From Kiritimatiellia bacterium (GTDB taxonomy: Bacteria > Verrucomicrobiota > Kiritimatiellia > CAIQIC01 > Lenti-01), in contig JAFYAC010000058.1 in the NCBI GenBank assembly GCA_017540905.1, forward strand, positions 1 through 48,804: a stretch of 48,804 nucleotides of DNA, written 5' to 3'. Each line of letters opens with the position of its first letter. Positions within the stretch are counted from its first letter, which is position 1. The translations under genes were made by a program, and so were the position numbers. The notes beneath the pieces were generated by a model. It was not told where the DNA came from, ran no database searches, and worked only from the letters and a program-made list of their open reading frames with translations. This document shows, piece after piece, positions 1 through 35,725 of this stretch.

Positions 1-567
1 CGCTGGATTGCCGCCCATCCCGAAATCACCGACGTCCTCCTCTCCGGCGGCGACCCCCTCCTCCTCCCCGACGAAACCCTCGACGCCCTCCTGACTTCCC
101 TCCGCGCCATCCCCCACGTCCGACTCCTGCGCATCGGCACCAAAGTCCCCGCCACCCTCCCCATGCGCATCACGCCGGCATTGGTCCGCATCCTCCGCGC
201 CCACCGCCCCCTCTGGCTGAGCCTCCACTTCACCCACCCCGACGAACTCACCCCCGACACGAAAAAATCCCTCCGCCTCCTCCTCGACGCCGGTATTCCC
301 CTCTGCTCCCAGACCGTCCTCCTCCGCAATGTCAACGACGACACCGAAACCCTCCGCACCCTTTTCGAGAATCTCGTCCTCAACGGCGTCAAACCCTACT
401 ACCTCCACTACACCGACGCCGCCGAAGGCACCGCCCACTTCCGCGCCTCCATCCCCCGCGGCCGCGCCCTTCTCCGCGCCCTGAACGGCACCGTCCCCGG
501 CTACGCCATCCCCCTCTTCATGCAAGACACCCCCGGCGGCGGCGGCAAACACCCCCTCGGCCCCTGA
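1..567 (+). CDS. Lysine 2,3-aminomutase family radical SAM protein (3' part)
   Basis: The frame is open from base 1, so the N-terminus, including the radical-SAM CxxxCxxC cluster, lies outside the window; 188 residues remain. SGGDPL (residues 15-20) is the family motif after the iron-sulfur cluster region, and TPGGGGK (177-183) carries the lysine that binds pyridoxal phosphate in KamA/EpmB enzymes. The protein stops five residues after this lysine. Clostridial KamA has a longer tail, so an EpmB/YjeK-like enzyme (beta-lysylation of EF-P) fits better than catabolic lysine aminomutase, but the missing N-terminus prevents a firm choice. Family assignment is secure; the substrate is inferred. Confidence 0.85.
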   Translation, partial: RWIAAHPEITDVLLSGGDPLLLPDETLDALLTSLRAIPHVRLLRIGTKVPATLPMRITPALVRILRAHRPLWLSLHFTHPDELTPDTKKSLRLLLDAGIPLCSQTVLLRNVNDDTETLRTLFENLVLNGVKPYYLHYTDAAEGTAHFRASIPRGRALLRALNGTVPGYAIPLFMQDTPGGGGKHPLGP

Positions 568-688
568 GCGCCCGCCTTTCCGCACCCTCCCTCCCGCACG
601 GTCGCGCAGAAGCGCCCCCCTCCCCCCGCGCCCTCTGACCTCCCCCGCCCCCCGCACCCCATGCCGCAAAACTCCCCCGCATGGACCA

Positions 689-708
689 TCTCGCGAGATT
701 ATGGAAAA
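689..708 (-). repeat. TTTTCYRYAATCTC motif, copy 1
   Basis: Read on the minus strand this is TTTTCCATAATCTCGCGAGA, ending in the palindrome TCTCGCGAGA. It is one of seven dispersed copies in the window (others near 9010, 9811, 11345, 14106, 35804 and 37891). Confidence 0.75.
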
Positions 709-932
709 TCCATTGAAATCCACCGTGTTTCCATGCCTTCCTCCCCCATGAACCCCAACGCGCTTCCGAACGCCCCCCGCCGTTCGGTTCGCGCGGAAGC
801 GCCCCCCACGGGACAACTTCCGAATAGCCGCAGACCGCTTGCCCCCGCCCGGCCCGCCCCCCCACCCCCGGCCTTTTCTCCCGCGTTCCGTTCCTCGTCC
901 GCCGCTTTTCCGGCATGAGGAAAAAAACGGGA

Positions 933-961
933 TTGAAAAGGGTGGGTGGACTTGGCATAGT
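933..961 (+). promoter_or_regulatory. Sigma-70-like promoter for the LysM gene
   Basis: TTGAAA (933-938), a 17-bp spacer and CATAGT (956-961). A leader of about 57 nt follows, with AAGGAGAG just before the ATG at 1025. Confidence 0.55.
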
Positions 962-1024
962 CGGCGGCGTGTTGGGTGGCGGAGAAGCCATCCGCGTGAT
1001 TTTGTCCAACAAGGAGAGAAAAGC

Positions 1025-1972
1025 ATGAAAATGTCGGTTATCGCCAGCTTGATCGTGGGAATCCACGTGGTCGTGATTGCGTCCGTGGCCGTCCAAGGTT
1101 GCACCACGCAGCACCGGCCGGGCGTGAACAATGGCGTCGAAGCCGTCGAACCGCCGCCGGCCCCCGAGATGCCGCCGATGGTCGACCCCGTCGTCCTGCC
1201 GCCCGAAGAACCCGTAGCCTTCCAGCCCGCCGCGGTGCAGCCGCCGGCCGCCCCGGCCCCGGTTCCGGCCGCCCCGGCCGAATCCTCCGTGTACGTGGTG
1301 CAGAAGGGCGACTCGCTCTCGAAGATCGCCGCCAAGCACGGTTGCAAGACCGCCGAGTTGCAGGAACTCAACGGCATCAAGGATCCCAACAAGATCCGCA
1401 TCGGCCAGAAGCTGATGCTCCCGGACGGCTCCAAGCCCTCCACCTCCGCCCCCGCCAAGGCGAACGACGCTGCCAAGGCGCCCGTCGCCGGCCCCGGCGA
1501 GTACGTCGTGCAGAAGGGCGACGCCCTCTCGAAGATTGCCGCCAAGCACGGCTGCAAGACCAAGGAGCTGATGGAGCTCAACGGCATCAAGGACGCCAAC
1601 AAGATCCGCATCGGCCAGAAGCTCAAGCTGCCGGGCGCCGCCGCCGCCGAACCCGCCAAGCCGGCCGAAGCGAAGGCCGAAGAAAAGCCGGCCGCCTGGG
1701 TCGCCCCGCTGCCGGCCGAAGAGCCCGCCGCGCCCGCGCCGGCCGCTCCCGCCGCCCCCGCGGTCGCCCCCGCCGCCGCCGAAGCCGCGTCCGCGGCCGC
1801 CGCCGACATGGAAGACGTCCTGGACTACACGGTCCAGAGCGGCGACACGGTCGAATCCATCGCCCGCCTCTTCGTCGTCAGCGCCGCCGACATCCGCAAA
1901 CTCAACGGCCTGGCCAGCGACGCGGAAGTGACGCAGGGCAAGGTCATCAAGATTCCCCCCACCGCCCTGTGA
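1025..1972 (+). CDS. Triple-LysM lipoprotein
   Basis: A 315-residue protein. The N-terminal hydrophobic segment ends in a lipobox-like VQGC, so it is probably a lipoprotein processed by signal peptidase II. Three LysM peptidoglycan-binding modules start near residues 90, 160 and 268, each opening with the typical YVVQKGD or YTVQSGD. The first two are nearly identical, which suggests recent duplication. Linkers are rich in Ala, Pro and Glu. No catalytic domain (NlpC, M23 or amidase) is present, so a binding or scaffolding role at the cell wall is inferred. The ATG at 1025 is chosen because AAGGAGAG lies just upstream and the lipoprotein signal begins there. A strong terminator follows at once. 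Confidence 0.88.
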   Translation: MKMSVIASLIVGIHVVVIASVAVQGCTTQHRPGVNNGVEAVEPPPAPEMPPMVDPVVLPPEEPVAFQPAAVQPPAAPAPVPAAPAESSVYVVQKGDSLSKIAAKHGCKTAELQELNGIKDPNKIRIGQKLMLPDGSKPSTSAPAKANDAAKAPVAGPGEYVVQKGDALSKIAAKHGCKTKELMELNGIKDANKIRIGQKLKLPGAAAAEPAKPAEAKAEEKPAAWVAPLPAEEPAAPAPAAPAAPAVAPAAAEAASAAAADMEDVLDYTVQSGDTVESIARLFVVSAADIRKLNGLASDAEVTQGKVIKIPPTAL

Positions 1973-1987
1973 GGCGGCTTCCGCGGG

Positions 1988-2018
1988 AAAACGCCCGGTC
2001 TGCACCGGGCGTTTTTTT
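1988..2018 (+). terminator. Rho-independent terminator after the LysM gene
   Basis: Stem ACGCCCGG (1991-1998) pairs with CCGGGCGT (2005-2012) over a 6-nt loop and is followed by a run of T to 2018. Confidence 0.92.
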
Positions 2019-2099
2019 GTCGGAAACGGCGACGGACATGGGCATTCGGGTTCCAACGGGCGGCGCGGGCTCCGCCCCGTGCGCGGCGGGAGGACGGGC

Positions 2100-3233
2100 G
2101 TGAAGGCGAAAGTGACGCTGATGCTGACCGTGCTGGCGCTGCTGATCTTCGGCATCGTGATGATCTACAGCACGAGCGGACCGTTCGCGGAGAACAAGTA
2201 CGGGGTGGGGCACGGGGACTACTTCATCGTCCGCCACGCCGTGTGGGTGGCGTTCGGGCTGGTGGCGTGCTGGGTGGGGGCGAAGGTGGATTACCACGTC
2301 TGGATGAAGGGCGTCTGGGCCATCCTGGGGGTGACAACGGTGTTGCTGGTGCTGGTGTACATTCCGCCGATCGGGAAAAACATCAACGGGAGCCGCCGCT
2401 GGGTCGGGGTGCTGGGCTACACGTTCCAGCCGTCGGAGCTGGCGAAGTTCGCGATCATCAACCTCATGGCCTGGTGGTACGGGCGGCGCCGCCGGGAGAT
2501 GCCCGTGTACTGGCGCCGGTGCGTGTGGGACCTGCTGCTCCCGGGCGCCGTGTTCGCCGCGGTGCTGGCGCTGATCCTGTTCGAGAAGGATATCGGCTCC
2601 ACGGCGCTGATCGGCCTGGTGGGCGGTTTGCTGATGTTCGTGGGCGGCGTGCCGGTGGCGCCGTTGCTGGCGCTCGCGCCCCTGGCGGCGGGGCTGCTGG
2701 GGTACATCGTTTCGCAAAACAGCGAACGCATGGGGCGCATCGTCTCCTTCCTGCACCCGGAGGAGTACTCGCAGGGCGAGGGCTACCAGCTGCTGAACGC
2801 GCTCTACGCCTTCGTCTCCGGCGGCCCCTGGGGGGTGGGTCTCGGCGCGAGCCTCCAGAAGCGCCTGTACCTGCCGGAGTCGCACACCGACTTCATCTTC
2901 GCCATCGTCGGCGAGGAGCTGGGCGTCGTGGCGACGCTCTCGGTCGTCGTCGCCTTCGTCGTGTTCTTCGTCTGCGGCATGCGCATCAGCGGCCGGGCGG
3001 CGGATGCGGGCGGACGCCTGCTCGCCTTCGGCATCACCGTGCTCATGAGCATCCAGGCCATCGTGAACGTCGCGATGGTGACCGGCTGCGCGCCGACCAA
3101 GGGCTTCCCCCTGCCCTTCATCAGCTTCGGCGGCAGCAGCCTGATCGTGACCCTGTTCATGGTGGGCGTCCTCCTGAACGTCGCCGACCAGGGCATCGCC
3201 GCCGGCGCGGTCCGCCGCCGCCGACGCCGCTGA
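2100..3233 (+). CDS. ftsW: FtsW/RodA-type peptidoglycan glycosyltransferase (SEDS family)
   Basis: A 377-residue polytopic membrane protein of the SEDS family, which polymerises lipid II at the division septum (FtsW) or side wall (RodA). Visible family marks are YSTSG in the first segment, GSRRWVGV followed by FQPSELAKF, and the C-terminal PTKGFPLPFISFGGSSL. The last resembles FtsW (TTKG...PFISYGGSS) more than RodA, so FtsW is favoured. The start is set at GTG 2100 because GGGAGGA lies 5 nt before it; an upstream GTG at 2079 has no such site. The C-terminus ends in a run of six arginines. No other division or cell-wall (dcw) gene is adjacent. Confidence 0.9.
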   Translation: MKAKVTLMLTVLALLIFGIVMIYSTSGPFAENKYGVGHGDYFIVRHAVWVAFGLVACWVGAKVDYHVWMKGVWAILGVTTVLLVLVYIPPIGKNINGSRRWVGVLGYTFQPSELAKFAIINLMAWWYGRRRREMPVYWRRCVWDLLLPGAVFAAVLALILFEKDIGSTALIGLVGGLLMFVGGVPVAPLLALAPLAAGLLGYIVSQNSERMGRIVSFLHPEEYSQGEGYQLLNALYAFVSGGPWGVGLGASLQKRLYLPESHTDFIFAIVGEELGVVATLSVVVAFVVFFVCGMRISGRAADAGGRLLAFGITVLMSIQAIVNVAMVTGCAPTKGFPLPFISFGGSSLIVTLFMVGVLLNVADQGIAAGAVRRRRRR

Positions 3234-3376
3234 ATCCGCTGCCGCGGAGCCCCCCGTCAACGGACGCCCCCCGGGAGGGTCGCGCTTCCGCGCGACCATG
3301 TGGCAGGCAAGCGCCTGGAAAGCCGCGGGAAAATGCCCCCCGACGCCCCGGAACGGCGATGCCGTGCCCCGAAATA

Positions 3377-3480
3377 TTTTTCCAATCATTGGAAAACTCC
3401 CGAAAATTTTTTCCAATCATTGGAAAAATTGTCCGATTTTTTCCAACCATTGGAAAAAAATTTTCCAATCATTGGAAAAC
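3377..3480. repeat. Four-palindrome CCAATnATTGG array, copy 1
   Basis: Four imperfect palindromes of the form TTTTCCAATCATTGGAAAA, centred at 3387, 3418, 3448 and 3470 (spacings 31, 30, 22). The third is the variant CCAACCATTGG. It is followed by a short conserved flank containing ACCGGATTGTGC. Two further arrays (13671-13768 and 35622-35722) have the mirror-image layout. Confidence 0.9.
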
Positions 3481-3554
3481 TTTTCCGCCCCCCATGAGCC
3501 ACCGGATTGTGCAAAACCCGGGGCCCGCAAGCGCCTGTGCCCCTCCCCAGCCGC

Positions 3555-3752
3555 CGGCGGCAAACACGGAGCGCACGGAGGAAGGAGACACGGAGGTTGC
3601 CGGGAGGGAGCTCCGCACCCGCGGCAACCTCTTTTTTCGTTCCTTGGCCCTTGTTGAAAAGTTTGGAGCGCGCGGATACCCCTCCCATAAACTCTCCCCC
3701 CAAAAAAACCTCCGTGCCTCCTTCCTCCGTCCCCTCCGTGTTTGCGCCGCAG
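3555..3752. repeat. Long-inverted-repeat (MITE-like) element, copy 1
   Basis: Arms of about 43 bp (3555-3598 and 3708-3752), built on CACGGAG steps, are inverted copies of each other around a core of about 110 bp. Related copies lie at 21527-21720 and, with only the right arm preserved, at 22815-22990. Confidence 0.75.
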
Positions 3753-3801
3753 GCAATCCCCCCGTCCCACCGCCCGACCGCAAATCCCCCGCAAAGAAAA
3801 C

Positions 3802-3830
3802 TTGCGCACCCCGCCCGCGCGCCGTACACT
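3802..3830 (+). promoter_or_regulatory. Possible promoter for the hprK-HPr pair
   Basis: TTGCGC (3802-3807), 17 bp, TACACT (3825-3830). The same TACACT -10 occurs in the CRISPR leader promoter. The -35 is weak and the leader to hprK would be about 140 nt. Confidence 0.3.
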
Positions 3831-3975
3831 GCAAGGGCAAACGAGGAACATGCGGTGAGCCCCATTCCATCCCCCGATACCCGTCCAGCCCAGGTTTCGA
3901 CCCCCTCCACGGTCAAACCCACCGCCCCCTTCCGCCCCCCCGCCCCCCCCTCGTCACCCGTCACTCGTCACTCCC

Positions 3976-4950
3976 ATGAGCGTCCCTCCCAACTACCACC
4001 GGCCCGTCCTGACCGTCGCGGACTTCTACCGCGCCGGACGCGAATCCCTCCAGCTCGACTGGGAGCTCAACGAGGAGCACGCCGCCTCCCACCGCATCGT
4101 CGAGCTCGCCCTCAACCGCCCCGGACTCGCCCTCGCCGGCTACCTCCGCCACTACGCCAACAAGCGCATCCAGGTCCTCGGCCTCGCCGAAACCGGCTAC
4201 CTCTCCTACCTCCCCCCCGAGGAGCGCGCCGCCCGCGTCCTCGCCCTCGGCGACGTCCCCGGCATCGTCCTCTGCCGCGGCCGCCGCACGCCCCCGTACG
4301 CCCGCGCCGCCCTCTCCGGCCTCCACGTCCCCGTCCTGCGCACCCGCATGATCACGGGCGACTTCATGAACGCGGCCACCGTCCTGCTCCAGAACCTCGG
4401 CTCCCCGCGCCTGCGCCTGCCCGGCACCCTCGTGGACATCAACGGCATCGGCGTGCTCCTCGAAGGCGAACCCGGCATCGGCAAGTCCGAAATCGCCCTC
4501 TCCCTCATCAAGCGCGGACACTCCCTCATCTCCGACGACGCCATCGTCCTCACCCGCCTCTCCACCGGCTCCGTCCTGGGCAGCGCCGTGGGGATCATCC
4601 GCGAGCACATGGAGATCCGCGGCCTGGGCATCATGCACGTCCCGAGCCTCTTCGGGGCGGCGGCGATGCGCGACTCCACGACCCTCGACCTGATCATCCG
4701 CATGCGCCGCGCCGGCACCGCCCCCGACGACATCGACCGGACGGGGCTGGACACGACCACCCGGAACGTGCTAGGAGTGGAGATTCCCCTCATCACCCTT
4801 CCGGTGGCGCCGGGGCGCGACGTGACCAACGTGGTCGAGATCGCCGCCCTCAACTGCCGCCTCAAGCAGATGGGCCACGACGCGGCGCGCGAACTGGACG
4901 CCCGCATCATGGAAACCCTTTCCAGGAAAGAAAAACCCAACCACCCGTGA
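3976..4950 (+). CDS. hprK: HPr kinase/phosphorylase
   Basis: A 324-residue protein that phosphorylates, and dephosphorylates, HPr on a regulatory serine. The P-loop GEPGIGKS is at residues 164-171, and the HprK signature (EIRGLGI...) follows about 50 residues later; the N-terminal domain, length and layout are normal. Its stop codon overlaps the HPr start (GTGA), so kinase and substrate are translationally coupled. No EIIA, EIIB or EIIC gene is near, as in many Gram-negative bacteria where HprK/HPr acts as a regulatory rather than a sugar-transport system. That functional reading is inference. Confidence 0.95.
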   Translation: MSVPPNYHRPVLTVADFYRAGRESLQLDWELNEEHAASHRIVELALNRPGLALAGYLRHYANKRIQVLGLAETGYLSYLPPEERAARVLALGDVPGIVLCRGRRTPPYARAALSGLHVPVLRTRMITGDFMNAATVLLQNLGSPRLRLPGTLVDINGIGVLLEGEPGIGKSEIALSLIKRGHSLISDDAIVLTRLSTGSVLGSAVGIIREHMEIRGLGIMHVPSLFGAAAMRDSTTLDLIIRMRRAGTAPDDIDRTGLDTTTRNVLGVEIPLITLPVAPGRDVTNVVEIAALNCRLKQMGHDAARELDARIMETLSRKEKPNHP

Positions 4951-5282
4951 GCGACAAGCCCCAACCGAAAACCGAGAAGAAAGCCCCCGCGGCCCCCGGC
5001 GCCCCCGCCGGCGGCCCCCACGTCCGGCGCGTCACCGTCCTCAACCGCTACGGCATCCACGCGCGCCCCGCCTCCCTCCTCGTGAAGGCCGCCAGCCGCC
5101 ACCCCTGCGACATCTACATCGAAAAAGAAGGCCTCCGCGTCAACGCCAAGTCCATCATGGGCCTCCTGACCCTCGAAGGCCACTGCGGCGCCGTCATGGT
5201 CCTCACCGCCGAAGGCCCCGAAGCCGCCGAGGCCCTCGACGAAATGGTCGACCTCTTCGAGAAAAAATTCTTCGAGGACTAG
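4947..5282 (+). CDS. ptsH: Phosphocarrier protein HPr
   Basis: A 111-residue HPr starting at GTG 4947 inside the hprK stop. The catalytic histidine is His38 in GIHARPA and the HprK target serine is Ser69 in KSIMGLL. Their separation of 31 residues matches canonical His15/Ser46. The first 25 or so residues form a Pro/Ala/Lys-rich extension that ordinary HPr proteins lack; a later start would remove it, but no convincing ribosome binding site supports one. Both phosphorylation sites being intact argues for a working regulatory circuit with the neighbouring HprK and EI. Confidence 0.93.
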   Translation: MSDKPQPKTEKKAPAAPGAPAGGPHVRRVTVLNRYGIHARPASLLVKAASRHPCDIYIEKEGLRVNAKSIMGLLTLEGHCGAVMVLTAEGPEAAEALDEMVDLFEKKFFED

Positions 5283-5334
5283 CCCCCATGCCGCCCCTCC
5301 AGGCATCCGGTCCCAAAAACAACTCGAACAACTC

Positions 5335-5463
5335 CAAAACAACTCCAAACAACCGATTTGGAAGACCGGATAGGGTCATGCGGCAAGATCGTTTTTCCCG
5401 GCCTTCCGCAACCAGTCCAGCGAATTGTCGCGAATTGTCTTCCAAGTTGTTGGAGTTGTTTTG
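5335..5463 (+). promoter_or_regulatory. Inverted repeat in the ptsI leader covering its ribosome binding site
   Basis: CAAAACAACTCC (5335-5346) is the exact reverse complement of GGAGTTGTTTTG (5452-5463). The right arm contains the GGAG (5452-5455) that would serve as the ptsI ribosome binding site, so a long-range hairpin could hide it. Extra AACAACTC units enlarge both arms. Confidence 0.5.
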
Positions 5464-5466
5464 AAA

Positions 5467-7260
5467 ATGTCCGAAGCCCCCTCCTCCCCCCCCCAGCCCC
5501 CCCCGCTCCCGGAAATCATCCTCCGCGGGATCGGCGTCGCCGACGGCATCGCCTTCGGCCCCCTCCACCGCCTCGAAACCGCGCCCCCGCCCGTCCCCGA
5601 AGACCCCGTCCCCCCCTCCCGCGCACCCGTCGAACTCCGTCGGCTCGACGCCGCCCTCGCCGCCGCCACCGCCCGCCTGCGCGAATTGCAGGCCAACCTC
5701 GCCGCCGCGGGCAACCCCGACGCCGCGGCCCTCTTCGAGGCCCAGCTCGCCGCCCTGGCCGACCCCGAATACACCGGCGAAATCCGCACCGCCATCCGCG
5801 CCAGCCGCCTCAACGCCGCGCGCGCCGTCCAGACCGTCTCCGGCAAATACGCCGCCGCCCTCGCCGCCCTCGCCGACCCCTACCTCCGCGAGCGCGCCGC
5901 CGACGTCCGCGACGTCGCCCTCCGCCTCCTGCGCCTCCTCGCCGGGCAGGCCGATTCCGCCGACCTTCCCGCCACCCCCCACATCCTCTACGCCCGCGAC
6001 TTGTCTCCCTCCGACCTCGCCGCCGCCCCGCGCGACAGCCTCCTCGCCCTGGCCACCGCCGAAGGCGGCCCCACCTCCCACACCGCCATCCTCGCCCGTT
6101 CCCTGGGCATCCCCGCCCTCGTCGGCATCCCCGACTGGGGCCCCGCGGCCCCGCCCGCCCCCGGCCCCGTCCTCCTCGACGGCACCGCCGGGCTCCTCGT
6201 CTTCCGGCCCGCCCCCGCCCGCCAGTCCGCCGCCGCCAAACGCATCCGCGCCAGGAACCGCCTCGGCGCCCGCCTCGCCAAACTCCGCGACCTCCCCTCC
6301 GAGACCCTCGACGGAACCCCCATCGCCCTGCGGGCCAACATCGAATCCCCCGACGCCGCCCCGCGCGTCCTCGCCGCGGGCGCAGACGGCGTCGGCCTCT
6401 TCCGCAGCGAATACCTCTTCATGGACGGCAGCACCCTGCCCGACGAAGACCGGCAACTGCGCGCCTACACCTCCATCGCCCGCTCCCTCGCCCCCGCGCC
6501 CGTCACCGTCCGCACCCTCGACCTCGGCGGCGACAAACTCACCCGGCACCTCGACTTCCCCCCCGAAGACAACCCCGCGATGGGCTGCCGCGCCCTGCGC
6601 CTGTGCCTCGCCCGCCCCGACCTCTTCAAGCCGCAGCTCCGGGCCCTCCTCCGGGCCGCGGCCGAGAGCTCCAACCTGCGCATCATGTACCCGATGGTCA
6701 ACGACCTCGCCGACCTGCGCGCCGCCGAAGCCGTCCGTCTGGCGTGCGCCGACGAACTCACCGCCGAAGGCATCCCCCACCGCCGCGACATCCCCGTCGG
6801 CGTCATGGTCGAAGTCCCCTCCGCGGCGCTCACCGCCGCCTGGCTGGCCACGCACGTCTCCTTCTTCAGCATCGGCACCAACGACCTCACCCAGTACACC
6901 CTGGCGGCCGACCGCGGCAACGAACGCGTCGCGCACCTCTGCCCCCTCGCGCACCCGGCCATCCTCCGGCTCATCCGCCTTACCGCGGCCGCCGCGCAGG
7001 TCGCGGGCATCCCCGCCTGCGTCTGCGGCGAAATGGCGTGGCACCCCGAACTCGCCCCCCTGCTGGTCGGCCTCGGCGTCAGCGCCCTGAGCACCTCCCC
7101 CGACGCCATCCCCGGCATCAAGCACGTCATCCGCTCCCTGCGCCTGGACGAAGCCCGCACCTTGGCCGACCACGTCCTGACCCTGGAAACCCCCGACGCC
7201 ATCCTCTCCGCCTGCCGCACCTTCCTCTCCTCCCACACCCCCGACCTCCTCGACGACTGA
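5467..7260 (+). CDS. ptsI: Phosphoenolpyruvate-protein phosphotransferase (Enzyme I)
   Basis: A 597-residue Enzyme I, which transfers phosphate from PEP to HPr. The phospho-histidine is His205 in GGPTSHTAI; the C-terminal PEP-binding barrel shows SIGTNDLTQYTLAADRGN and the cysteine motif CVCGEMA. The start is ATG 5467, eleven nt after a GGAG; earlier in-frame codons lie inside a repeat-rich leader. It follows HPr by 184 bp rather than overlapping, so its translation may be set independently (see the leader inverted repeat). Length and motifs are complete, which supports a functional, though EII-less, phosphorelay. Confidence 0.94.
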   Translation: MSEAPSSPPQPPPLPEIILRGIGVADGIAFGPLHRLETAPPPVPEDPVPPSRAPVELRRLDAALAAATARLRELQANLAAAGNPDAAALFEAQLAALADPEYTGEIRTAIRASRLNAARAVQTVSGKYAAALAALADPYLRERAADVRDVALRLLRLLAGQADSADLPATPHILYARDLSPSDLAAAPRDSLLALATAEGGPTSHTAILARSLGIPALVGIPDWGPAAPPAPGPVLLDGTAGLLVFRPAPARQSAAAKRIRARNRLGARLAKLRDLPSETLDGTPIALRANIESPDAAPRVLAAGADGVGLFRSEYLFMDGSTLPDEDRQLRAYTSIARSLAPAPVTVRTLDLGGDKLTRHLDFPPEDNPAMGCRALRLCLARPDLFKPQLRALLRAAAESSNLRIMYPMVNDLADLRAAEAVRLACADELTAEGIPHRRDIPVGVMVEVPSAALTAAWLATHVSFFSIGTNDLTQYTLAADRGNERVAHLCPLAHPAILRLIRLTAAAAQVAGIPACVCGEMAWHPELAPLLVGLGVSALSTSPDAIPGIKHVIRSLRLDEARTLADHVLTLETPDAILSACRTFLSSHTPDLLDD

Positions 7261-7281
7261 GCCCCCCTTCCCCATCCTGAC

Positions 7282-7300
7282 GGCGGGCTGTCAGCCCGCC
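7282..7300. terminator. Hairpin between convergent ptsI and tyrS
   Basis: GGCGGGCT and AGCCCGCC pair over a 3-nt loop. There is no T-run on either side, so it is only a possible bidirectional terminator. Confidence 0.4.
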
Positions 7301-7324
7301 GCCCCTCCCCCGCCGCCCTCTCCC

Positions 7325-8530
7325 CTACCCGATCCGCACCTTCGCGAACCCCCGCTTCCCGCTGCGGATCACCATCCCCTCCTCCGGCGTCACCTGCGCG
7401 CGCACGTCGGTGACCTTCTCGTCGCCGATGCGCACCGCGCCCGCCGACACCAGCCGCCGCGCTTCGCCCGTGCTGGCGGCCAGTCCCGCCTTCACCATCA
7501 GGTTCAGCAACCCGATCGGCTCCGCCAGAACCGTCACCTCCGGCATGTCGTCCGGCAGCTGCGCCTGCGAGAACACGCGCTTGAACTCCGCCGACGCCTC
7601 CTCCGCGGCCGCCGCCCCGTGGAACTTCTCCACGATGCGCCGCCCGAGCTCGTCCTTCACGTCGCGCGGATGCCGCGAACCGTCCGCGACCGCCGCGCGC
7701 ATCGCCGCGATCTCGTCCTCCGGCATGCACAGCACCAGCGAGAAGTAGCGCCACATCAGCTCGTCGCTCACGCTCATCGTCTTGCCGAACGTCTCGCGCG
7801 GCGTGTCGTTGACCGCGATGTAGTTGCCGAGGCTCTTGCTCATCTTGTGGACCCCGTCCAACCCTTCCAGGAGCGGCAGGGTCATCACGATCTGCGGGTC
7901 CATGCCGTGCGCCTTCTGGATTTCGCGCCCGAGCAGCAGGTTGAACAGCTGGTCCGTGCCGCCGAGCTCCACGTCCGCCTTGACCATCACCGAGTCGTAC
8001 GCTTGCACCAGCGGGTACAAAAACTCCACCAGCGAAATCGGCTGCCGCGCCGCGTAGCGTTTGGCGAAGTCGTCCCGCGCCAGCAGCTGCGCCACCGTCA
8101 CGTGCGCGCTCAGCCGGATCACCCGCTCGAACGTCATCGGGCTGAACCACTCCGAGTTGAACCGGATCTCCGTCTGCGCCGGGTCGAGGATCTTGAACAC
8201 CTGCTCCTGGTAGCTCTTCGCGTTCTCCTTCACTTGCTCGCGCGACAGCTGCGGCCTCGTCGCCGACTTCCCCGACGGGTCGCCGATCATCCCCGTGAAG
8301 TCCCCGATGATGAACACCACCGTGTGCCCGCACTCCTGGAACTCGCGCAGCTTGTTCATCGCCACGCAGTGCCCGAGGTGCAGGTCCGGCGCCGACGGGT
8401 CGGCCCCCAGCTTGATGCGCAGGGGACGCTTCTCGGCCGCCGCCTTCTCCAGGCGGGCCTTGAGTTCCTCCGCGCTGTGCAGGTCCACGGTGCGGGCGGT
8501 GAGTTTCGCAATCTGTTCTTCCAAGGTCAT
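7325..8530 (-). CDS. tyrS: Tyrosyl-tRNA synthetase
   Basis: A 401-residue class I aminoacyl-tRNA synthetase charging tRNA-Tyr. HLGH (51-54, the HIGH motif) and KMSKS (229-233) are present, and the C-terminal 60-70 residues form an S4-like RNA-binding domain. Motif spacing and length fit the TyrZ-type subgroup. GGAAAGGA precedes the ATG on the minus strand. It stands alone, convergent with ptsI. Confidence 0.95.
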   Translation of the reverse strand: MTLEEQIAKLTARTVDLHSAEELKARLEKAAAEKRPLRIKLGADPSAPDLHLGHCVAMNKLREFQECGHTVVFIIGDFTGMIGDPSGKSATRPQLSREQVKENAKSYQEQVFKILDPAQTEIRFNSEWFSPMTFERVIRLSAHVTVAQLLARDDFAKRYAARQPISLVEFLYPLVQAYDSVMVKADVELGGTDQLFNLLLGREIQKAHGMDPQIVMTLPLLEGLDGVHKMSKSLGNYIAVNDTPRETFGKTMSVSDELMWRYFSLVLCMPEDEIAAMRAAVADGSRHPRDVKDELGRRIVEKFHGAAAAEEASAEFKRVFSQAQLPDDMPEVTVLAEPIGLLNLMVKAGLAASTGEARRLVSAGAVRIGDEKVTDVRAQVTPEEGMVIRSGKRGFAKVRIG

Positions 8531-8560
8531 GGGACAATCCTTTCCGTCAAAACTCCCGCC

Positions 8561-8588
8561 ACCCTACCGTCTCCCCCCCGGAAAGCAA
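8561..8588 (-). promoter_or_regulatory. Candidate tyrS promoter
   Basis: On the minus strand TTGCTT (8588-8583), a 16-bp spacer and TAGGGT (8566-8561). The -10 is poor. Confidence 0.35.
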
Positions 8589-8665
8589 TCCAAATCACAC
8601 CCCCGCGCATCCGCCCCCCCGTTCGCCCCGCCCTCCGGGCGCCCGAAAAAAACCGACTTTTTTTC

Positions 8666-8693
8666 TTGCATCCTCCGCCAAAAAGCGTATGGT
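8666..8693 (+). promoter_or_regulatory. Candidate tRNA promoter
   Basis: TTGCAT (8666-8671), 16 bp, TATGGT (8688-8693), placing transcription start about 10 nt before the mature tRNA. Confidence 0.45.
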
Positions 8694-8710
8694 ACCAACA
8701 AATCACCGAT

Positions 8711-8787
8711 TGCGGGGTGGAGCAGCCCGGCAGCTCGTCAGGCTCATAACCTGAAGGTCCTTGGTTCGAATCCAAGCCCCGCTACCA
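8711..8787 (+). tRNA. Initiator tRNA-fMet (CAT)
   Basis: A 77-nt cloverleaf with anticodon CAT and an encoded CCA end. It is read as the initiator because position 1 and 72 are both T (unpaired) and the D stem GAGC/GCTC gives the A11-U24 pair typical of initiators. Two features are odd: the 1-72 mismatch is T-T rather than the common C-A, and the anticodon stem next to the loop is AGG/CCT instead of GGG/CCC. The T loop is TTCGAAT. Confidence 0.95.
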
Positions 8788-8817
8788 ATTTCGTACGCAA
8801 TACAAAACACCGAAAAG

Positions 8818-8850
8818 ACGCTGGTTTCCCAAAAGCCAGCGTTCTTTTTT
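8818..8850 (+). terminator. Terminator after the tRNA
   Basis: ACGCTGG (8818-8824) pairs with CCAGCGT (8836-8842), followed by TCTTTTTT. Confidence 0.88.
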
Positions 8851-9000
8851 GTCCCCTTCGCTTTGCTTGCCTCCGCCTCACGGCAGCACGCCCCCCATAC
8901 CGTCCCCTCCCCCCGTCTGCCAACATTTTTGCCAACATCCCCCTGCCCCCCCTTCAAGCGCCGGACCGCCGCGTTGGCCTCGAAGGCATGCCGACCCAAG

Positions 9001-9018
9001 TCATGAGATTACAGAAAA
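9001..9018 (-). repeat. TTTTCYRYAATCTC motif, copy 2
   Basis: Minus-strand TTTTCTGTAATCTCATGA, 40 bp upstream of the unknown gene at 9058 and inverted relative to copy 3, which lies inside that gene. Confidence 0.7.
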
Positions 9019-9057
9019 TGATTGACATTCCTCCAACCATCCTCCATCCTCGCCCCC

Positions 9058-9975
9058 ATGAAAACCCAAGCCCCCCGCATCGTTTCGAACACGGCCAACA
9101 CCCTCTCGGCCATCCACTCCGTCTTCAGCGTCAACGCCACCATACGCGACAACGACTGGATGCTCCTCCTCGCCATCACGCCCCCCATCCTCGCCGCATA
9201 CGCCGCCACCGAAGTCGGCGCCTGGGTCATCCACGAAATCGGACGGCAAATCCGCATCCACGAAAAACGCCCCGCATCCCCCTCCCTTCGCGGCACGCCC
9301 ACGCCCAAGGAACTCACCGCCGACTGGCGCGAAAAGCCCCGTACCCTCGCCATCCGCCTCCGCCTCGGTTCGCGCCTGGCCGACCTCGATCCCACGCTCG
9401 ACCATTCCATCCTCCGCACCACCCTCCCGAGCGGCAAGACCGTCATCCGTTCCCGCAAGGGCGGCATGAAAGGCTGGCTGGAAGACCGCCGTGTCGCCAT
9501 CCCCTACTCCACCGCCATGCGCTACAAGAAGCTCGCCCAGCGACTCCGCCAACTCCTGCAGCTGGACGACCGCATGCCCCTCGAATGGCTGCTCTCCGGC
9601 ATTCCGGCGGAACAACACCTCCCCGCCGACCTCCAGAACGCCTTTGCGTCCGCCGCCCGTCGGCTCGCCGCCATCATCCGCGAGAACCCGACGCTCGCCG
9701 CGCTGGGTCGCTACGCGGAGCGGAAGCTCGGCATCGTGCGGCTGGTGGCGGTGAGAAAATCATGGGGGAGGAGAAGTGCGAAATCGCGTAAAACATCAGA
9801 GTTTTCCGCAATCTCGCGAGACAGGAGGGCCAATGTGTCGCCGGAGCGGGTGGAGGCGACGAAGGAGGCAATGGGGCGCGTGCTGGCCGCCCGGAATCTG
9901 GCGGGGACCGCCCTGCACCTGCAAAACCGCATCAAGGCATGGCTCGCGGGGCTGCAATCCGGGGGCCAAGCCTGA
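9058..9975 (+). CDS. Hypothetical protein
   Basis: I do not recognise this 305-residue protein with confidence. The N-terminal third is mildly hydrophobic (around residues 30-55), and the middle is basic with IPYSTAMRYKKLAQRL, which weakly recalls DUF3102 or phage-type DNA-binding helices. The ATG at 9058 is chosen as the first in-frame ATG; no ribosome binding site is visible. A copy of the dispersed TTTTCYRYAATCTC repeat (9802-9821) lies inside the frame, so the last 60 residues after it may be an add-on. Copy 2 sits inverted upstream. Codon use is less GC3-extreme than in neighbours. Possible transfer or repeat-associated gene; function unknown. Confidence 0.6.
   Translation: MKTQAPRIVSNTANTLSAIHSVFSVNATIRDNDWMLLLAITPPILAAYAATEVGAWVIHEIGRQIRIHEKRPASPSLRGTPTPKELTADWREKPRTLAIRLRLGSRLADLDPTLDHSILRTTLPSGKTVIRSRKGGMKGWLEDRRVAIPYSTAMRYKKLAQRLRQLLQLDDRMPLEWLLSGIPAEQHLPADLQNAFASAARRLAAIIRENPTLAALGRYAERKLGIVRLVAVRKSWGRRSAKSRKTSEFSAISRDRRANVSPERVEATKEAMGRVLAARNLAGTALHLQNRIKAWLAGLQSGGQA
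9802..9821 (+). repeat. TTTTCYRYAATCTC motif, copy 3 (inside a coding frame)
   Basis: TTTTCCGCAATCTCGCGAGA within the unknown gene at 9058-9975, preceded by a short AAAAC arm that could pair with GTTTTCC. Confidence 0.75.
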
Positions 9976-10027
9976 GGCCCCGGGCCCGCCCCTTGCAAAG
10001 GGGGATGCGCCCCCCGGCAGAAAACGG

Positions 10028-10056
10028 TTGGCAAACCCGCCTTCCGCCGCCATACT
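10028..10056 (+). promoter_or_regulatory. lpxK promoter, probably giving a leaderless mRNA
   Basis: TTGGCA (10028-10033), 17 bp, CATACT (10051-10056). The -10 ends 8 nt before the ATG at 10065, so transcription would begin at or next to the start codon. Confidence 0.6.
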
Positions 10057-10064
10057 GTCCCGAT

Positions 10065-11231
10065 ATGCCCAAGCAGTCCCCAGAGCGCCTCGAAGCGTAT
10101 TTCCTGGCCGTCATCGCCAACCGCATGCACGGCTGGGGGCCCAACGCCCTGCGCTGGGCGCTCTCCGGCCTTTCGCGCCTGTACAGCGGCATCGTCAACC
10201 TCCGCCTGGCGCTCTACGAACACCGCATCATCCGCTCCGAGGAGCTCGGCTGCCAGGTCATCAGCATCGGCAACCTCACGGTCGGCGGCACCGGCAAGAC
10301 GCCGGTCGTGGAAGTGTTCGCCCGCGAGTTGCAGAAGAACGGCCGTCGCGTGGCCATCCTCTCGCGCGGCTACAAGAAGGCCGAGCTGCCGTTCTCGGAA
10401 AAATTCAAGAATTTCGTCACCTTCAACACCCCCAAGCAGCAGCCCCCGCGCATCGTCTCCGACGGCCGCCGCCTGCTGCTGGACTCGGCGATGGGCGGCG
10501 ACGAACCCTACATGCTCGCCTCCAACCTCCCCGACGTCTGCGTGCTGGTGGACAAGGACCGCGTGAAGTCCGGCCGCTACGCCATCCAGAAGCTCGGCTG
10601 CGACACGCTGATCCTCGACGACGGCTTCCAGTACCTGCGCCTCAAGCACCGCGTGGACATCGTGCTCGTGGACCGCACGAACCCCTTCGACAACGGCCGC
10701 GTGCTCCCGCGCGGGCTGCTGCGCGAGTCGGTCCGCCACCTCTCCCGCGCGTCGTTCATCTTCATCACCAAGTCCGCCGGCGACGGCTCGCCCGAGCTGC
10801 GCGCGCGCATCCGCGAACTCAATCCCACGGCGGAAATCGCCGAATGCCGCCACACGCCGCGCCACTTCACCAACGTCTACACCGGCGAGCGCGAGGACCT
10901 GGACTTCCTGCGCGGCAAGAAGGTCGCCGCCATCTCCGGCATCGCCGCCCCGCGCGGCTTCGAGGAGTCGCTGGAGCGGATGGGCGGCGAGCTGGTCTAC
11001 CGCAAGCGCTTCGGCGACCACCACCGCTACACGCAGCAGGAAATCCTCGACATGATCAACGACAGCCGCGACCGCGGCGCGGAGCTGATCCTGACGACGG
11101 AGAAGGACGCCGTCCGCTTCCCCAAGATCGACCGCCGCGACATCCCGGTCTATTTCCTGCGCATCGCCATCGACCTGCTGAGCGGCGAGGAAGACTTCCA
11201 GCAGCTCATCCGCCGCATCTGTTTCAAGTAG
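10065..11231 (+). CDS. lpxK: Tetraacyldisaccharide 4'-kinase
   Basis: A 388-residue LpxK, which phosphorylates the lipid A precursor at the 4' position on the inner face of the cytoplasmic membrane. The P-loop GNLTVGGTGKT is at residues 69-79, preceded by a hydrophobic, basic N-terminus that anchors the enzyme to membrane. DDGFQYLRL (near 187) and LTTEKDAV near the C-terminus are further family marks. Its presence shows that the cell makes lipid A. No ribosome binding site precedes the ATG, which fits the leaderless promoter just upstream. It is a single-gene unit between the unknown gene and fusA. Confidence 0.93.
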   Translation: MPKQSPERLEAYFLAVIANRMHGWGPNALRWALSGLSRLYSGIVNLRLALYEHRIIRSEELGCQVISIGNLTVGGTGKTPVVEVFARELQKNGRRVAILSRGYKKAELPFSEKFKNFVTFNTPKQQPPRIVSDGRRLLLDSAMGGDEPYMLASNLPDVCVLVDKDRVKSGRYAIQKLGCDTLILDDGFQYLRLKHRVDIVLVDRTNPFDNGRVLPRGLLRESVRHLSRASFIFITKSAGDGSPELRARIRELNPTAEIAECRHTPRHFTNVYTGEREDLDFLRGKKVAAISGIAAPRGFEESLERMGGELVYRKRFGDHHRYTQQEILDMINDSRDRGAELILTTEKDAVRFPKIDRRDIPVYFLRIAIDLLSGEEDFQQLIRRICFK

Positions 11232-11336
11232 CCTGCGCGCGGCCGGCATGGCGGGGGAGAGGGGGCGGTCGGGGGGAGGACAACGGCCGTTGTTTTCTTG
11301 GGTTCGACCATGCTTGGAATCGGATGGTTTTGCTTG

Positions 11337-11354
11337 TTTTTCCGTAATCTCACG
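11337..11354 (+). repeat. TTTTCYRYAATCTC motif, copy 4
   Basis: TTTTTCCGTAATCTCACG in the lpxK-fusA gap; the hairpin arm seen upstream of other copies is missing here. Confidence 0.7.
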
Positions 11355-11508
11355 TCATGGCGGACGAGGGGCCGGCGCCATCTCAAAAAACGTTTTACCC
11401 TAGGCAATTTTTCCTCCATCCGCATTTTGGCCTTGATTTCCGGGCCCGTTCCGTCCATGATGCGCGCCCGTTTTGCCCGGGGCGAGCCCGGGCGAGGAGG
11501 TACGAACC

Positions 11509-13602
11509 ATGTCCAGAGAAGTCCCCATTTCCAACGTCCGCAACATCGGCATCATGGCCCACATCGACGCCGGCAAGACCACCGTCTCCGAGCGCATCCT
11601 CTACTACTCCGGCAAGACCCACAAGCTCGGCGAGGTCCACGACGGCCAGGCCACCATGGACTTCATGGTCCAGGAGCGCGAGCGCGGCATCACCATCCAG
11701 TCCGCCGCCACCACCCTCCAGTGGAAGGGCCACTACGTCACCCTCATCGACACCCCCGGACACGTCGACTTCACCGTCGAGGTCGAGCGCTCCCTCCGCG
11801 TCCTGGACGGCTCCGTCGCCCTCTTCTGCGCGGTCGGCGGCGTGCAGCCGCAGTCCGAGAAAGTCTGGCACCAGTCCGAGAAGTACGAAGTCCCCAAGAT
11901 CGCCTTCATCAACAAGATGGACCGCACCGGCGCCGACTTCTACGGCGTCCTCGAGGAAATCCGCACCGAGCTGCACTGCAACCCCGTGCCCATCGTGATC
12001 CCGATCGGCAAGGAGGACCGCTTCCGCGGCGTCATCCACCTGATCGACATGAAGGCCATCTACTACGGCGAAGGCGACGACACCGACGTCCGCATCGAGG
12101 ACATCCCGGCCGACCGCCTCGAAAAGGCCAGGAAGTGGCGCGAAAACCTCGTCGAGCAGTGTGCCGAGCAGGACGACGCGCTCATGGAGGAATTCTTCTC
12201 CACCGGCACCCTCCCGGCCGACAAGATGCGCGCCATCCTGCGCAAGGCGACCATCGCCCGCAAGATCGTACCGGTTTATTGCGGCAGCGCCTTCAAGAAC
12301 AAAGGCATCCAGCAGCTCCTCGACGGCGTCGTCGGGCTCCTCCCCGCGCCCAACGAAATCCCGCCCATCATCTCCGCCAAGACCGAAGACGGCGCCGAGC
12401 CCGAGCGCCGCGAACCCACCGACGAAGCCCCCTTCAGCGCCCTGGCCTTCAAGATCGTCGCCGACAAGCACGCCGGCAAACTCACCTACATCCGCATCTA
12501 CTCCGGCACCCTCACCGCCGGCCAGAACGTCTGGAACAGCACCCTCGGCAAGGAACAGCGCATCGGGCGCATCCTGCGCATGCACGCCAACCACTCCGTG
12601 CAGCTCGAGACCGCGCAGACCGGCGACATCGTGGCCGTGGTCGGCCTCGCCCACACCCGCACGGGCGACACCATCTGCGACAAGGACCACCCCATCCAGC
12701 TGACGAGCATCGAATTCCCGGCGCCGGTCGTCTCCATCTCCATCAAGCCCGACTCCACGGCCGACAACGAAAAACTCTCCAACGCCCTCTTCAAGCTGGC
12801 CGAAGAAGACCCCACCTTCACCGTCGCCTTCGACCAGGAGACCGGCGAGACCGTCATCTCCGGCATGGGCGAACTGCACCTGGACATCATCGTCGACCGG
12901 CTCAAGCGCGAATTCAACGTCGCCGCGCAGGTCGGCCGCCCCGAAGTCGCCTACCGCGAAACCGCCACCCAGATCGCCGACGGCCAGTACAAGCACGTCA
13001 AGCAGTCCGGCGGCCGCGGCCAGTACGCCCACGTCTGCATGCGGCTCGAGCCCCTGCCGGCGGGGAGCGGCTTCGAATTCGTCAACGAAGTCGTCGGCGG
13101 GCGCATCCCCTCCAACTTCATCCCCTCCGTCCAGAAGGGCGTCGCGAAGGCCATGCAGAAAGGCCCCTACGCCGGGTATCCCGTCGTCGACGTCCGCGTC
13201 GTCCTCTACGACGGCAGCTACCACGAAGTCGACTCCTCCGACTTCGCCTTCCAGGAAGCCGGCCGCGCATGCTTCTGCGAACTCTTCTCCAAGGCCTCGC
13301 CGGTCATCCTGGAGCCCGTCATGTCCGTCGAGGCGGTGACGCCCGAAGAATTCATGGGCGCGGTGACCGGCAGCATCTGCCAGCGGCGCGGCCGCGTCGA
13401 GACCATGGAAGACAAAGGCCACCAGAAGGTCATCACCGGGATGGTCCCCCTCGGCGAAATGTTCGGCTACGCGACGGCGCTCCGCAGCCTGACGCAGGGC
13501 CGCGCCGGTTTCTCCATGCAATTCGAGCACTACGAAGCGGTCCCCTTCTTCCTGACCGAAGAAATCATCAAGGCCCGCCGCAAGGCCGGCAAGATCCACT
13601 GA
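11509..13602 (+). CDS. fusA: Translation elongation factor G
   Basis: A 697-residue ribosomal translocase. The GTPase motifs are complete: AHIDAGKT (17-24), RGITI (switch I), DTPGH and NKMD; domains II-V follow at usual length. The start ATG 11509 has GAGGAGG eight nt upstream. The sequence after G1 (GQATMDFM in place of the common GAATMDWM) differs a little from classic EF-G, so an EF-G paralogue cannot be excluded. It is not next to rpsL, rpsG or tuf, unlike the str operon arrangement. Confidence 0.92.
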
Positions 13603-13666
13603 CCGCCCGCGCCATCCTCCGCGCCCCTCCCCCGCCGCGACCCGGTTGCCGACCGGGCCGCGGAAT

Positions 13667-13770
13667 TTTTTCCAATGATTGGAAAACTTTTTTCCAATGG
13701 TTGGAAAACTTGCGCCGTTTTTTCCAATGATTGGAAAAATTTTTCGGCCGTTTTCCAATGATTGGAAAAA
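13667..13770. repeat. Four-palindrome CCAATnATTGG array, copy 2
   Basis: Palindromes centred at 13677, 13699, 13729 and 13760 (spacings 22, 30, 31). The second is the variant CCAATGGTTGG. This is the exact mirror of the array at 3377-3480. Confidence 0.9.
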
Positions 13771-14081
13771 ATTTTCGCCCTCCGGCGGAAGGGTTTTCCG
13801 GGGCTCTTGGGCGGTTTCGGGAACCGTGCGGCGTGGGGCCGCCGTTCCGCCGGCCATTTCCGCTGCGGACGCGCGGAAGCGCGTCCCTCCCCCTGGAGCG
13901 CGCCCGGGGGTCGCGCTTCCGCGCGGCCTTGGCGTACGGGAAGCCGCTTGCACGCGCTCCATTCCCCGAATTCCGCCCCGCCATCCCGGCCCCCCCTTCC
14001 CCATCCACCGCGGCGACGGCGCCCGCGCCGCCGCCCGGGGAGGCGGCAAACGTTCATGGGGGGAAGATGGTTGCGGAACCG

Positions 14082-14115
14082 CGGAAAACAACGGTGTTTT
14101 CCGTAATCTCGCGAG
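14082..14115 (+). repeat. TTTTCYRYAATCTC motif, copy 5, with hairpin
   Basis: CGGAAAACA and TGTTTTCCG form a 9-bp stem with a 4-nt loop, directly followed by TAATCTCGCGAG. This is the clearest hairpin form of the family. Confidence 0.8.
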
Positions 14116-14138
14116 TGGGCCGGACATGGGGCGGGGAC

Positions 14139-14167
14139 AAAAAAACAGCCCCCGGGGACGGGGGCTG
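14139..14167 (-). terminator. Terminator of the outer-membrane barrel gene
   Basis: On the minus strand CAGCCCCC pairs with GGGGGCTG over a 6-nt loop, followed by seven T (14145-14139). Confidence 0.92.
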
Positions 14168-14188
14168 CGCGGGAGGGATGGAGGGGGG

Positions 14189-14842
14189 TCAGAAGTCGAA
14201 GATGACGCCCGCCTGGAAGGCGACGCCGCTGCAGTCGAGCTTGACCTCGTGGAAATCCTTGAGCTTGGTCTCGGTGCCCGTGTAGCGCGCTTCGCCGAAA
14301 ATCGAGAGGTGGGGGCAGAGCTGGAAGGAGAGGCCCGCGAGCCCATACCAGCCGACGTCGTTTTCGAGGTCGGTGTCCTCGTCGTACTCCTTGCGGTAGT
14401 GGTGGCCGTGGCGGGAGGAATAGGACTTCTCGTTGTAGTCGTAGATGTAGTAGCCCGCGCCGCCGCCGCCGTAGAGCGTGACGACGCTGCCGAGCGGCAT
14501 CATGAGGACGAGGCCGACTTCCAGCGGCACGCAGGAGAAGGTTTCGTCCTCCTTGTAGCGGCGGCCGTCGATCCAGTAGGTCTCGCCTTCCCAGTTGGCG
14601 GAGGCGCCGGCGCGGAAGTCGATGCCCAGGTACTTGATCGGCCGGATGCGGAAGATGATGTTCCCGCCCCACATCCCGTCGGAATCGAAGCCCTTGTCGC
14701 CGTCGATGTCCTTGGCCATCCAGTACTGGGCGCCGAGGCCGAGGTTGAACACGGAGTAGCCCTTGTCGCCGTCGTCCGCGCGGACGGCGGGAACGGCCGA
14801 AAGCAGGGCCAGCAGGCAGGCGCAGATTTTCCAGGTTTTCAT
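14189..14842 (-). CDS. Outer-membrane beta-barrel protein
   Basis: A 217-residue protein with a clear Sec signal peptide (about residues 1-22, cut after AVRA). The mature part is a run of alternating-hydrophobic strands rich in Gly and Tyr, ending in an aromatic VIFDF, the usual C-terminal signal for BAM-mediated insertion. It resembles small OmpW/OmpA-type 8-strand barrels (PF13505-like). The start ATG at 14842 has AAGGA just upstream and begins the signal peptide; upstream codons in the same frame lack both. No ligand is suggested by context. A strong terminator follows. Confidence 0.8.
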   Translation of the reverse strand: MKTWKICACLLALLSAVPAVRADDGDKGYSVFNLGLGAQYWMAKDIDGDKGFDSDGMWGGNIIFRIRPIKYLGIDFRAGASANWEGETYWIDGRRYKEDETFSCVPLEVGLVLMMPLGSVVTLYGGGGAGYYIYDYNEKSYSSRHGHHYRKEYDEDTDLENDVGWYGLAGLSFQLCPHLSIFGEARYTGTETKLKDFHEVKLDCSGVAFQAGVIFDF

Positions 14843-15680: not shown

Positions 15681-15710
15681 GTTCGCTGCCCTTCTTGGAG
15701 TGCTGGAGGG

Positions 15711-35417: not shown

Positions 35418-35621
35418 GAAGAAAACCTCGCACAGAGGCACGGAGGCACGGAGAAGACGATATGGTTTTACGTTCCGGACATCCCGCCCACTCCGCCGCC
35501 CATCCTGCATTGGAACCCGGTAAAATGACCGGGCCGCCCGGAGAGCCCCTCCCTTGAGACTCCTTGCCCCCCCGCCAACCCCGGGGGGCGCACAATCCGG
35601 TAGCCCGGCGGCCAAACCGAT

Positions 35622-35725
35622 TTTTCCAATGATTGGAAAAAAGTTTTCCAATGGTTGGAAAAACAGGCCCATTTTTTCCAATGATTGGAAAAATTTTTCA
35701 CGCATTTTCCAATGATTGGAAAAAT
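35622..35725. repeat. Four-palindrome CCAATnATTGG array, copy 3
   Basis: Palindromes centred at 35631, 35653, 35683 and 35714 (spacings 22, 30, 31), the second being CCAATGGTTGG. Its left flank (CGCACAATCCGGT) is the reverse complement of the right flank of copy 1. Confidence 0.9.

Follow-up and report, generated by a model that had tools for sequence, protein, structure and literature searches.

Helically phased palindrome arrays in intergenic DNA of Kiritimatiellia, with half-sites that change between lineages: candidate sites of a cooperative dimeric protein

The DNA analysed here, hereafter the window, is a stretch of 48,804 nucleotides from a Kiritimatiellia genome (G000; 3.51 Mb in 178 contigs, 84% complete), in which genes were predicted with a home-made gene finder whose frames for fusA, HPr kinase and LpxK are borne out by Pfam. 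Three arrays of four short palindromes lie in it (Table 1), present where an earlier note on this DNA had placed them (3377-3480, 13667-13770 and 35622-35725) and, as it had also said, each of the three between predicted genes. Read on the strand with the central G, and with distances in bp taken from centre to centre, every array has the layout A-22-B-30-A-31-A, A being CCAATGATTGG and B being CCAATGGTTGG, so that the fixed 22-30-31 spacing described in that note recurs in all three. The variant half-site falls in the same unit each time, B being the second in three of three arrays, between the 22 and 30 gaps, and copy 1 is indeed inverted, with its central G on the minus strand and those of arrays 2 and 3 on the plus strand. 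The flank that all three copies were said to share held in part: GCACAATCCGGT is plain to see in just two copies, 1 and 3, and copy 2 is at best weakly alike. With zero or one mismatch to CCAATNATTGG the window contains 12 palindromes (nine exact and three with one mismatch), which are the 12 array units; two mismatches bring in seven more matches, which are scattered.

Table 1. Positions of the palindrome arrays, their variant units and side modules in the window
Feature	Position	Strand	Context or basis
Array 1, A-22-B-30-A-31-A	3379..3478	- (central G on minus)	FtsW/RodA-type gene 2121-3233 (+) to HPr kinase 3976-4950 (+)
Array 1 variant unit B (CCAATGGTTGG)	3443..3453	-	motif scan and layout comparison
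Array 1 side module (GCACAATCCGGTGG on minus strand)	3499..3523	-	common to a subset of own-genome arrays
Array 2, A-22-B-30-A-31-A	13669..13768	+	66 bp past fusA end (13602); convergent with beta-barrel outer-membrane protein gene 14189-14842 (-)
Array 2 variant unit B	13694..13704	+	motif scan and layout comparison
Array 3 side module (GCACAATCCGGTAGCCCGGCGG)	35590..35611	+	alignment with other own-genome arrays
Array 3, A-22-B-30-A-31-A	35623..35722	+	aldo/keto reductase gene 34569-35417 (+) to AAA/DUF4143 gene 36464-37810 (+)
Array 3 variant unit B	35648..35658	+	motif scan and layout comparison

Elsewhere in the window, a type I restriction HsdR-like protein is encoded at 24283-26646 on the minus strand and a Cas3-like helicase-nuclease at 38479-40818 on the plus strand, early in a run of plus-strand genes. 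Near tRNA-Met (8711-8787), positions 9005-9975 form a dispersed repeat with more than 12 matches at 68-73% identity in contigs of the relatives G001 and G002; its ORF (9058-9975) had no Pfam match. A mosaic dispersed repeat comprises 19155-19971 and 13838-13942, with many copies of 74-95% identity in the same two genomes, and its part at about 13847-13931 matches the same places there as 19155-19246, on the opposite strand.

Across the whole genome, exact TTTTCCAATSATTGGAAAA was found 244 times and its reversed control not once, a result that rules out a chance origin of the palindromes in 3.5 Mb; TTTCCAATNATTGGAAA (280) and TTTCCAA-N3-TTGGAAA (508 sites) likewise had reversed controls of zero. 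The grammar of the arrays was read from 40 stretches picked around arrays together with the window (462 kb in all). Arrays reach six units, and their usual order is A-22-B, B-30-A and A-31-A, with exceptions that include B-22-B starts, A-22-A and single gaps of 21, 23, 29 and 32 bp. The earlier note had held that random spacing genome-wide would speak against its proposal; instead, all 166 of the 166 successive site distances of up to 250 bp in these 40 mostly array-centred stretches (at most one mismatch allowed, the overlapping stretch L092 left out) measured 21-23 or 29-32 bp. The 22-bp linker is mostly constant in length, and its A/T boundary shifts. A side module around GCACAATCTGGTAGC is common to 17 arrays, chosen by eye from the 49 with at least three units and then aligned, and conservation ends sharply beyond it. 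Because linkers and side module are partly conserved, some arrays of this genus have also multiplied as copies. On two other contigs (C42 and C75; stretches L093 and L102), the two arrays match at every letter, flanks included, over the stretch compared; part of the genome is therefore duplicated or was assembled twice.

Among 387 genomes of the phylum, TTTTCCAATNATTGGAAAA was present in 25, all inside the class. TTTCCAA-N3-TTGGAAA was found in 59, with a maximum of 1010 sites in one relative; 13 of these 59 genomes belong to other classes, with one site each, and the reversed control matched in five of the 387, once or twice each. A pair pattern (TCCA-N5-TGGA twice at 27-35 bp) occurred in 64 of these genomes, versus a reversed control seen once in each of three. 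At least four phased pairs were found in 47 of 131 class genomes, spread over 13 families, versus none of 256 genomes of the other classes; a single pair was found in five further class genomes, and one to three pairs in 12 of the 256. Since 84 of the 131 class genomes have fewer than four pairs, the system would be inessential to the class, unless dialects went unseen. A search of nine array-free or nearly array-free genomes (20-80 kb each) for other over-represented inverted repeats yielded nothing comparable, the strongest being CGCCCC-N3-GGGGCG with six copies in G036. A wider contig scan returned at least 117 stretches, and among the matches listed nearly all were titled Kiritimatiellae, Kiritimatiellia, Kiritimatiellales, Pontiellaceae, Lentisphaerae, Verrucomicrobia or uncultured, the other titles among them being Spartobacteria (three, one MAG) and Firmicutes (one, a 3-kb contig). 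In f15 and f17, some lone palindromes fall within orthologous open frames or at their starts (FPIIGK and similar; L112/L133, L114/L144, L132/L149), and lone sites there may thus be coding coincidences.

In other families the linkers are unrelated and the spacing is held at 31-32 bp. All 29 of 29 pairs in G020 stand at 31 bp with differing linkers, though the search pattern permitted 14-44. In the f2 genomes, successive distances of up to 250 bp fall at 31-32 bp in 41 of 44 cases in G021 (39 at 32, two at 31) and in 47 of 51 in G018 (30 at 31, 17 at 32), and at positions 11-20 from the centre the commonest base is found in just 27-41% of the 144 sites of these two genomes. A 31-32 peak in the set of named MAGs is not evidence, because that set was retrieved with a 31/32-bp pattern. 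Successive distances longer than 35 bp keep a 10.5-bp phase (n=31 from nine pooled sets whose arrays are not fully independent; R 0.63, p ~4e-6). The own-genus distances alone (22/30/31) gave no clear 10.5-bp period, fitting best at 9.5, the lowest value in the tested range, and the seven f17 distances showed no phase.

The half-site itself exists in dialects: the own genus uses TTTTCCAA, sister genera use TTTTCCAY and one species uses TTTTACGT, and a fourth relative has the latter two together with hybrids. Each of six sister-genus genomes of the same family had zero TTTCCAA-N3-TTGGAAA sites, and four of them (G005, G007, G008 and G010) had 45-140 TCCA-N5-TGGA pairs, with half-sites CCAC or CCAT. 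The change can be followed inside one genus, g6, where G007 and G010 have 93 and 98 TCCA-type pairs and no TTTACG-N5-CGTAAA site, in G013 169 TTTACG-N5-CGTAAA sites stand beside one TCCA-type pair, and G014 has 34 of the former sites and 18 of the latter pairs. The ACGT form was met in only three of 18 family genomes searched, namely G013, G014 and G017 (one site). Its spacing is that of the other dialects, nine of ten distances being 31 bp and the tenth 32. A pattern of architecture alone, TTTT-N11-AAAA three times, gave 31 triples in G013 versus one in the control, and is weakly informative where controls are high (57 versus 36 in G014, 50 versus 25 in G002). In G014, 11 of 31 array sites are hybrids that combine a CCAC/T half with an ACGT half, as are 11 of 46 in an overlapping 245-kb sample; many of these stretches had been selected for holding an ACGT site. 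The earlier note's proposal of sites for a cooperative dimeric protein gains support from the kept spacing with unrelated linkers, the phased longer distances and these hybrid half-sites.

Some further features of these dialects were observed. In three stretches of G005 (L207-L209), 10 of 12 array sites combine one CCAC half with one CCAT half, which suggests an intrinsic left-right asymmetry of the site. In stretch L195 (3793-3886), four ACGT palindromes at 31-31-31 abut the ATG of a frame, presumably a HAD-family phosphatase judging by eye, leaving no space for a ribosome-binding site. Five G014 contigs (C10, C12, C13, C14 and C75) have ACGT-type sites less than 280 bp from their starts, as if the assembly breaks nearby.

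The arrays are biased towards intergenic DNA. In the own-genome stretches, of 59 sites or arrays one is inside a predicted gene and another overlaps the end of a gene, 11 of the 59 being at stretch edges; relative to tandem genes, nine have the same orientation and 16 the opposite one. In stretches chosen irrespective of arrays, array midpoints fell in predicted genes in nine of 34 cases in G021 (29.7 expected) and two of 18 in G018 (15.9 expected), and of the gaps of at least 60 bp an array occupies 24 of 63 and 15 of 41, respectively, about 40% in the two f2 genomes sampled. Convergent and divergent gaps both contain them, with 13/32 convergent versus 7/33 divergent in the own genome, 4/9 versus 3/13 in G021 and 2/5 versus 1/8 in G018, so that promoters are not the common denominator. 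A preference for gaps with a 3' end, at which the stop-codon distances in G021 given below hint, was not significant per gap (p 0.34, 0.22 and 0.82).

Placement differs between close species. At the fusA locus, where flanking genes are 97-98% identical, G000 has an array after fusA, that of G002 is laid out differently and lies about 190 bp off on the opposite strand, and G001 has none within 1.5 kb; upstream of hprK, with flanking genes of the same 97-98% identity, an array is present in G000 and in G001 at different places and is missing from G002 within 1.5 kb. Other genes in this comparison are 78-95% identical. In two more orthologous gaps (G014/G010 and G008/G007), one genome of each pair has an array. 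That arrays are not fixed in place between close species counts against the explanation favoured below, as such turnover would fit dispersing repeats equally. A position that recurs, with both CCAA and CCAY forms, in G006, G010, G021, L302 and L310 (five genomes or loci) is directly upstream of a gene that we take, by eye, to be pheS.

If the palindromes acted as stems, changes in one arm could be expected to be matched in the other. Actually, complementarity was at or below the level expected for independent arms at most variable positions: in f1, 0.40 versus 0.55+-0.06 at position +-2 and 0.31 versus 0.44 at +-1; in the own genus, 0.59 versus 0.67 at +-1; and in f2, 17 one-sided changes with no compensated pair in 144 sites at +-2. 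The exception is position +-1 in f2 (0.72, slightly above the 0.66+-0.02 expected). The general lack of arm co-variation, together with the phasing, is what a double-stranded DNA site read by one subunit on each half would show. The arrays do fold strongly as RNA (z -5.2 to -5.8), because near-perfect palindromes fold so anyway, and in G021 the distance from a site cluster back to the stop codon is 1-14 nt in 23 of 41 cases, both of which would agree with transcribed hairpins, either intrinsic terminators or structures at mRNA 3' ends. This explanation is nevertheless hardly credible, given that arrays occur in divergent gaps too, that compensatory change is mostly absent and that hybrid units could not make a full unit hairpin. 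A terminator scan of window positions 1-20000 was at background, with 19 terminator-like sites versus 15.6 in shuffles, and the single intrinsic terminators that the earlier note had named as the contrary outcome did not appear, as no unit of arrays 1 and 2 was among the 19 or had the GC-rich stem followed by a T run that defines them. One terminator-like site, at 13643-13660, has a T tail that overlaps array 2 at its first T run. Known RNA families gave no Rfam match in the window except tRNA. Taken together, the kept spacing, changed half-sites and unmaintained pairing (with its one exception) argue against hairpins, terminators and REP elements alike, and for cooperative dimer binding on one face of double-stranded DNA.

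REP elements deserve separate consideration. The arrays could be non-autonomous mobile repeats of the REP/BIME kind, spread by a RAYT-type (Y1) transposase reading single-stranded DNA hairpins, with spacing as a by-product of tandem copying. REP/BIME elements are described as intergenic palindromes, over 100 in number, that form mosaic arrays with regular spacing, and BIMEs can be hybrid (PMC2817692), and the class arrays resemble them in being extragenic and of high copy, with hundreds of mostly intergenic copies, mosaic arrays and lineage-specific sequences. The partly conserved own-genus linkers and side module, and the presence or absence of arrays between 97-98% identical flanking genes, point the same way, and 36 of 39 relatives have Y1_Tnp. 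However, its Pfam-level counts do not follow the pairs (17 matches to 98 pairs in G010, 3 to 191 in G000, 6 to 312 in G021), and at that level the Y1 transposase is disfavoured as a discriminator. According to the account in PMC3733652, RAYT-mobilised REPs have a GTAG or CGTC tag at the palindrome foot; in the 12-nt flanks of the own genome GTAG was found in 0 of 446 (about 10 expected) and CGTC in 7 of 446 (about 39 expected), for which A/T-rich flanks explain part, and the respective numbers were 1 and 12 of 334 in G018 plus G021 and 0 and 1 of 118 in f1 sisters. Tagged REPs were rejected in all three sets of flanks, and paired REP stems at the tested positions except f2 +-1. The class sites differ from REP/BIME also in hybrids at the level of the half-site, common in G014, and in phased spacing with free linkers, which stays at 31-32 in other families where linkers are unrelated. 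We therefore regard such a mobile repeat as unlikely.

The main rival is that the arrays serve a single global transcription regulator (Lrp-, NrdR- or CRP-like) as operators, with a regulon over many operons. NrdR boxes are found at ribonucleotide reductase operons, in one or two pairs, with a sequence unlike that of the class sites. They are described as palindromes with 15-16 bp spacers whose centres are best about three helical turns apart, one more turn being tolerated (PMC12051234), a two-box geometry that the class arrays share, in geometry only. The way these phased pairs work, and the array just upstream of the presumed pheS, are in favour of the operator explanation. In contrast to NrdR boxes, the class arrays amount to hundreds of sites, up to six per array in the own genome and seven in one predicted viral contig, with two-turn spacing as well and with changing half-sites. 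Operators of oligomeric Lrp/AsnC regulators consist of several regularly spaced semi-palindromic sites, BarR being described with 21 genomic loci (PMC4977709). Yet AsnC (PF01037) is present in 108 of 128 class genomes, families without arrays included, and has one match in G014 with its two dialects, so that its presence does not follow that of the arrays and it failed as a discriminator; its N-terminal helix region varies among dialects, which alone decides nothing. With arrays in convergent gaps and in some 40% of the f2 gaps sampled, a single regulon seems doubtful. A DNA-uptake or self-recognition signal is very unlikely: genome-wide copies in lineage dialects recall the DNA uptake sequence of Neisseriaceae, a motif re-specified between related species (PMC3630211), but the copies here are hundreds, not thousands, they are biased to intergenic DNA, and phased palindromic arrays are unnecessary for uptake and are not part of its description in that source.

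We consider it probable, though by no means assured, that the arrays are phased sites of a cooperative dimeric protein that coats or bridges intergenic DNA in an organising or insulating role. The 19-bp palindrome (TTTT, a 4-bp half-site, 3 free bp, a half-site and AAAA) would be the double-stranded site of the dimer, one subunit reading each half-site, and successive sites, mostly two or three helical turns apart, would align successive dimers on one face of the DNA and favour cooperative binding. As sites number 508 in the own genome and as many as 1010 in a relative, and are mostly intergenic, such a protein may coat or bridge this DNA, organise the nucleoid or insulate its parts, and affect flanking transcription. 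The half-site would have been re-specified by lineage while the geometry was retained, and the hybrid sites of G014, in which two specificities appear to coexist, suggest hetero-dimers of two related subunits. The reading as dimer-bound arrays is well supported and a chromosome-level role is the likeliest; the organiser proposed in the earlier note stands as one possible role, no protein having been found among the families examined.

Palindromes read by chromosome-organising proteins include matS (MatP), parS (ParB) and the Noc sites, which differ from the class arrays in having a conserved sequence, fewer sites and no known fixed array spacing. No published description of these arrays was found in the open-access literature, judged from the titles and abstract openings of part of the matches, and a search there for papers on nucleoid-associated proteins in these bacteria found none. 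If bound cooperatively, the arrays would amount to a chromosome architecture written in the sequence across the whole genome under a strict helical rule. More tentatively, it is possible that one bacterial class has a chromatin-like system in which paralogous subunits homo- and hetero-dimerise, read modular half-sites (TTTT plus 4 bp) and assemble in helical register in many intergenic regions, and whose recognition code was replaced genome-wide within a genus, from CCAY to ACGT, through a stage of hybrid sites, the protein co-evolving with hundreds of sites. A half-site change inside one genus, with one genome holding both forms and hybrids, offers a natural experiment on a protein and many sites switching specificity together. 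Neither Y1_Tnp, AsnC/Lrp nor the array neighbours examined yielded a candidate binder or a co-occurring family, the recurring neighbours recognisable by eye being ordinary genes such as pheS and sulfatases. The binder's gene would be expected to distinguish G007/G010 from G013 and to occur twice in G014, which offers a direct route to it.

Palindrome arrays were also matched in 14 stretches of predicted viral contigs (L412-L424 among them), with sites at 30-32 bp; L413 has seven, at 31-31-22-31-31-31. Either phages of these hosts carry the arrays, or host fragments were misclassified as viral. In another predicted viral contig, L062, three sites (3436-3498) lie within an open frame at 3128-3577.
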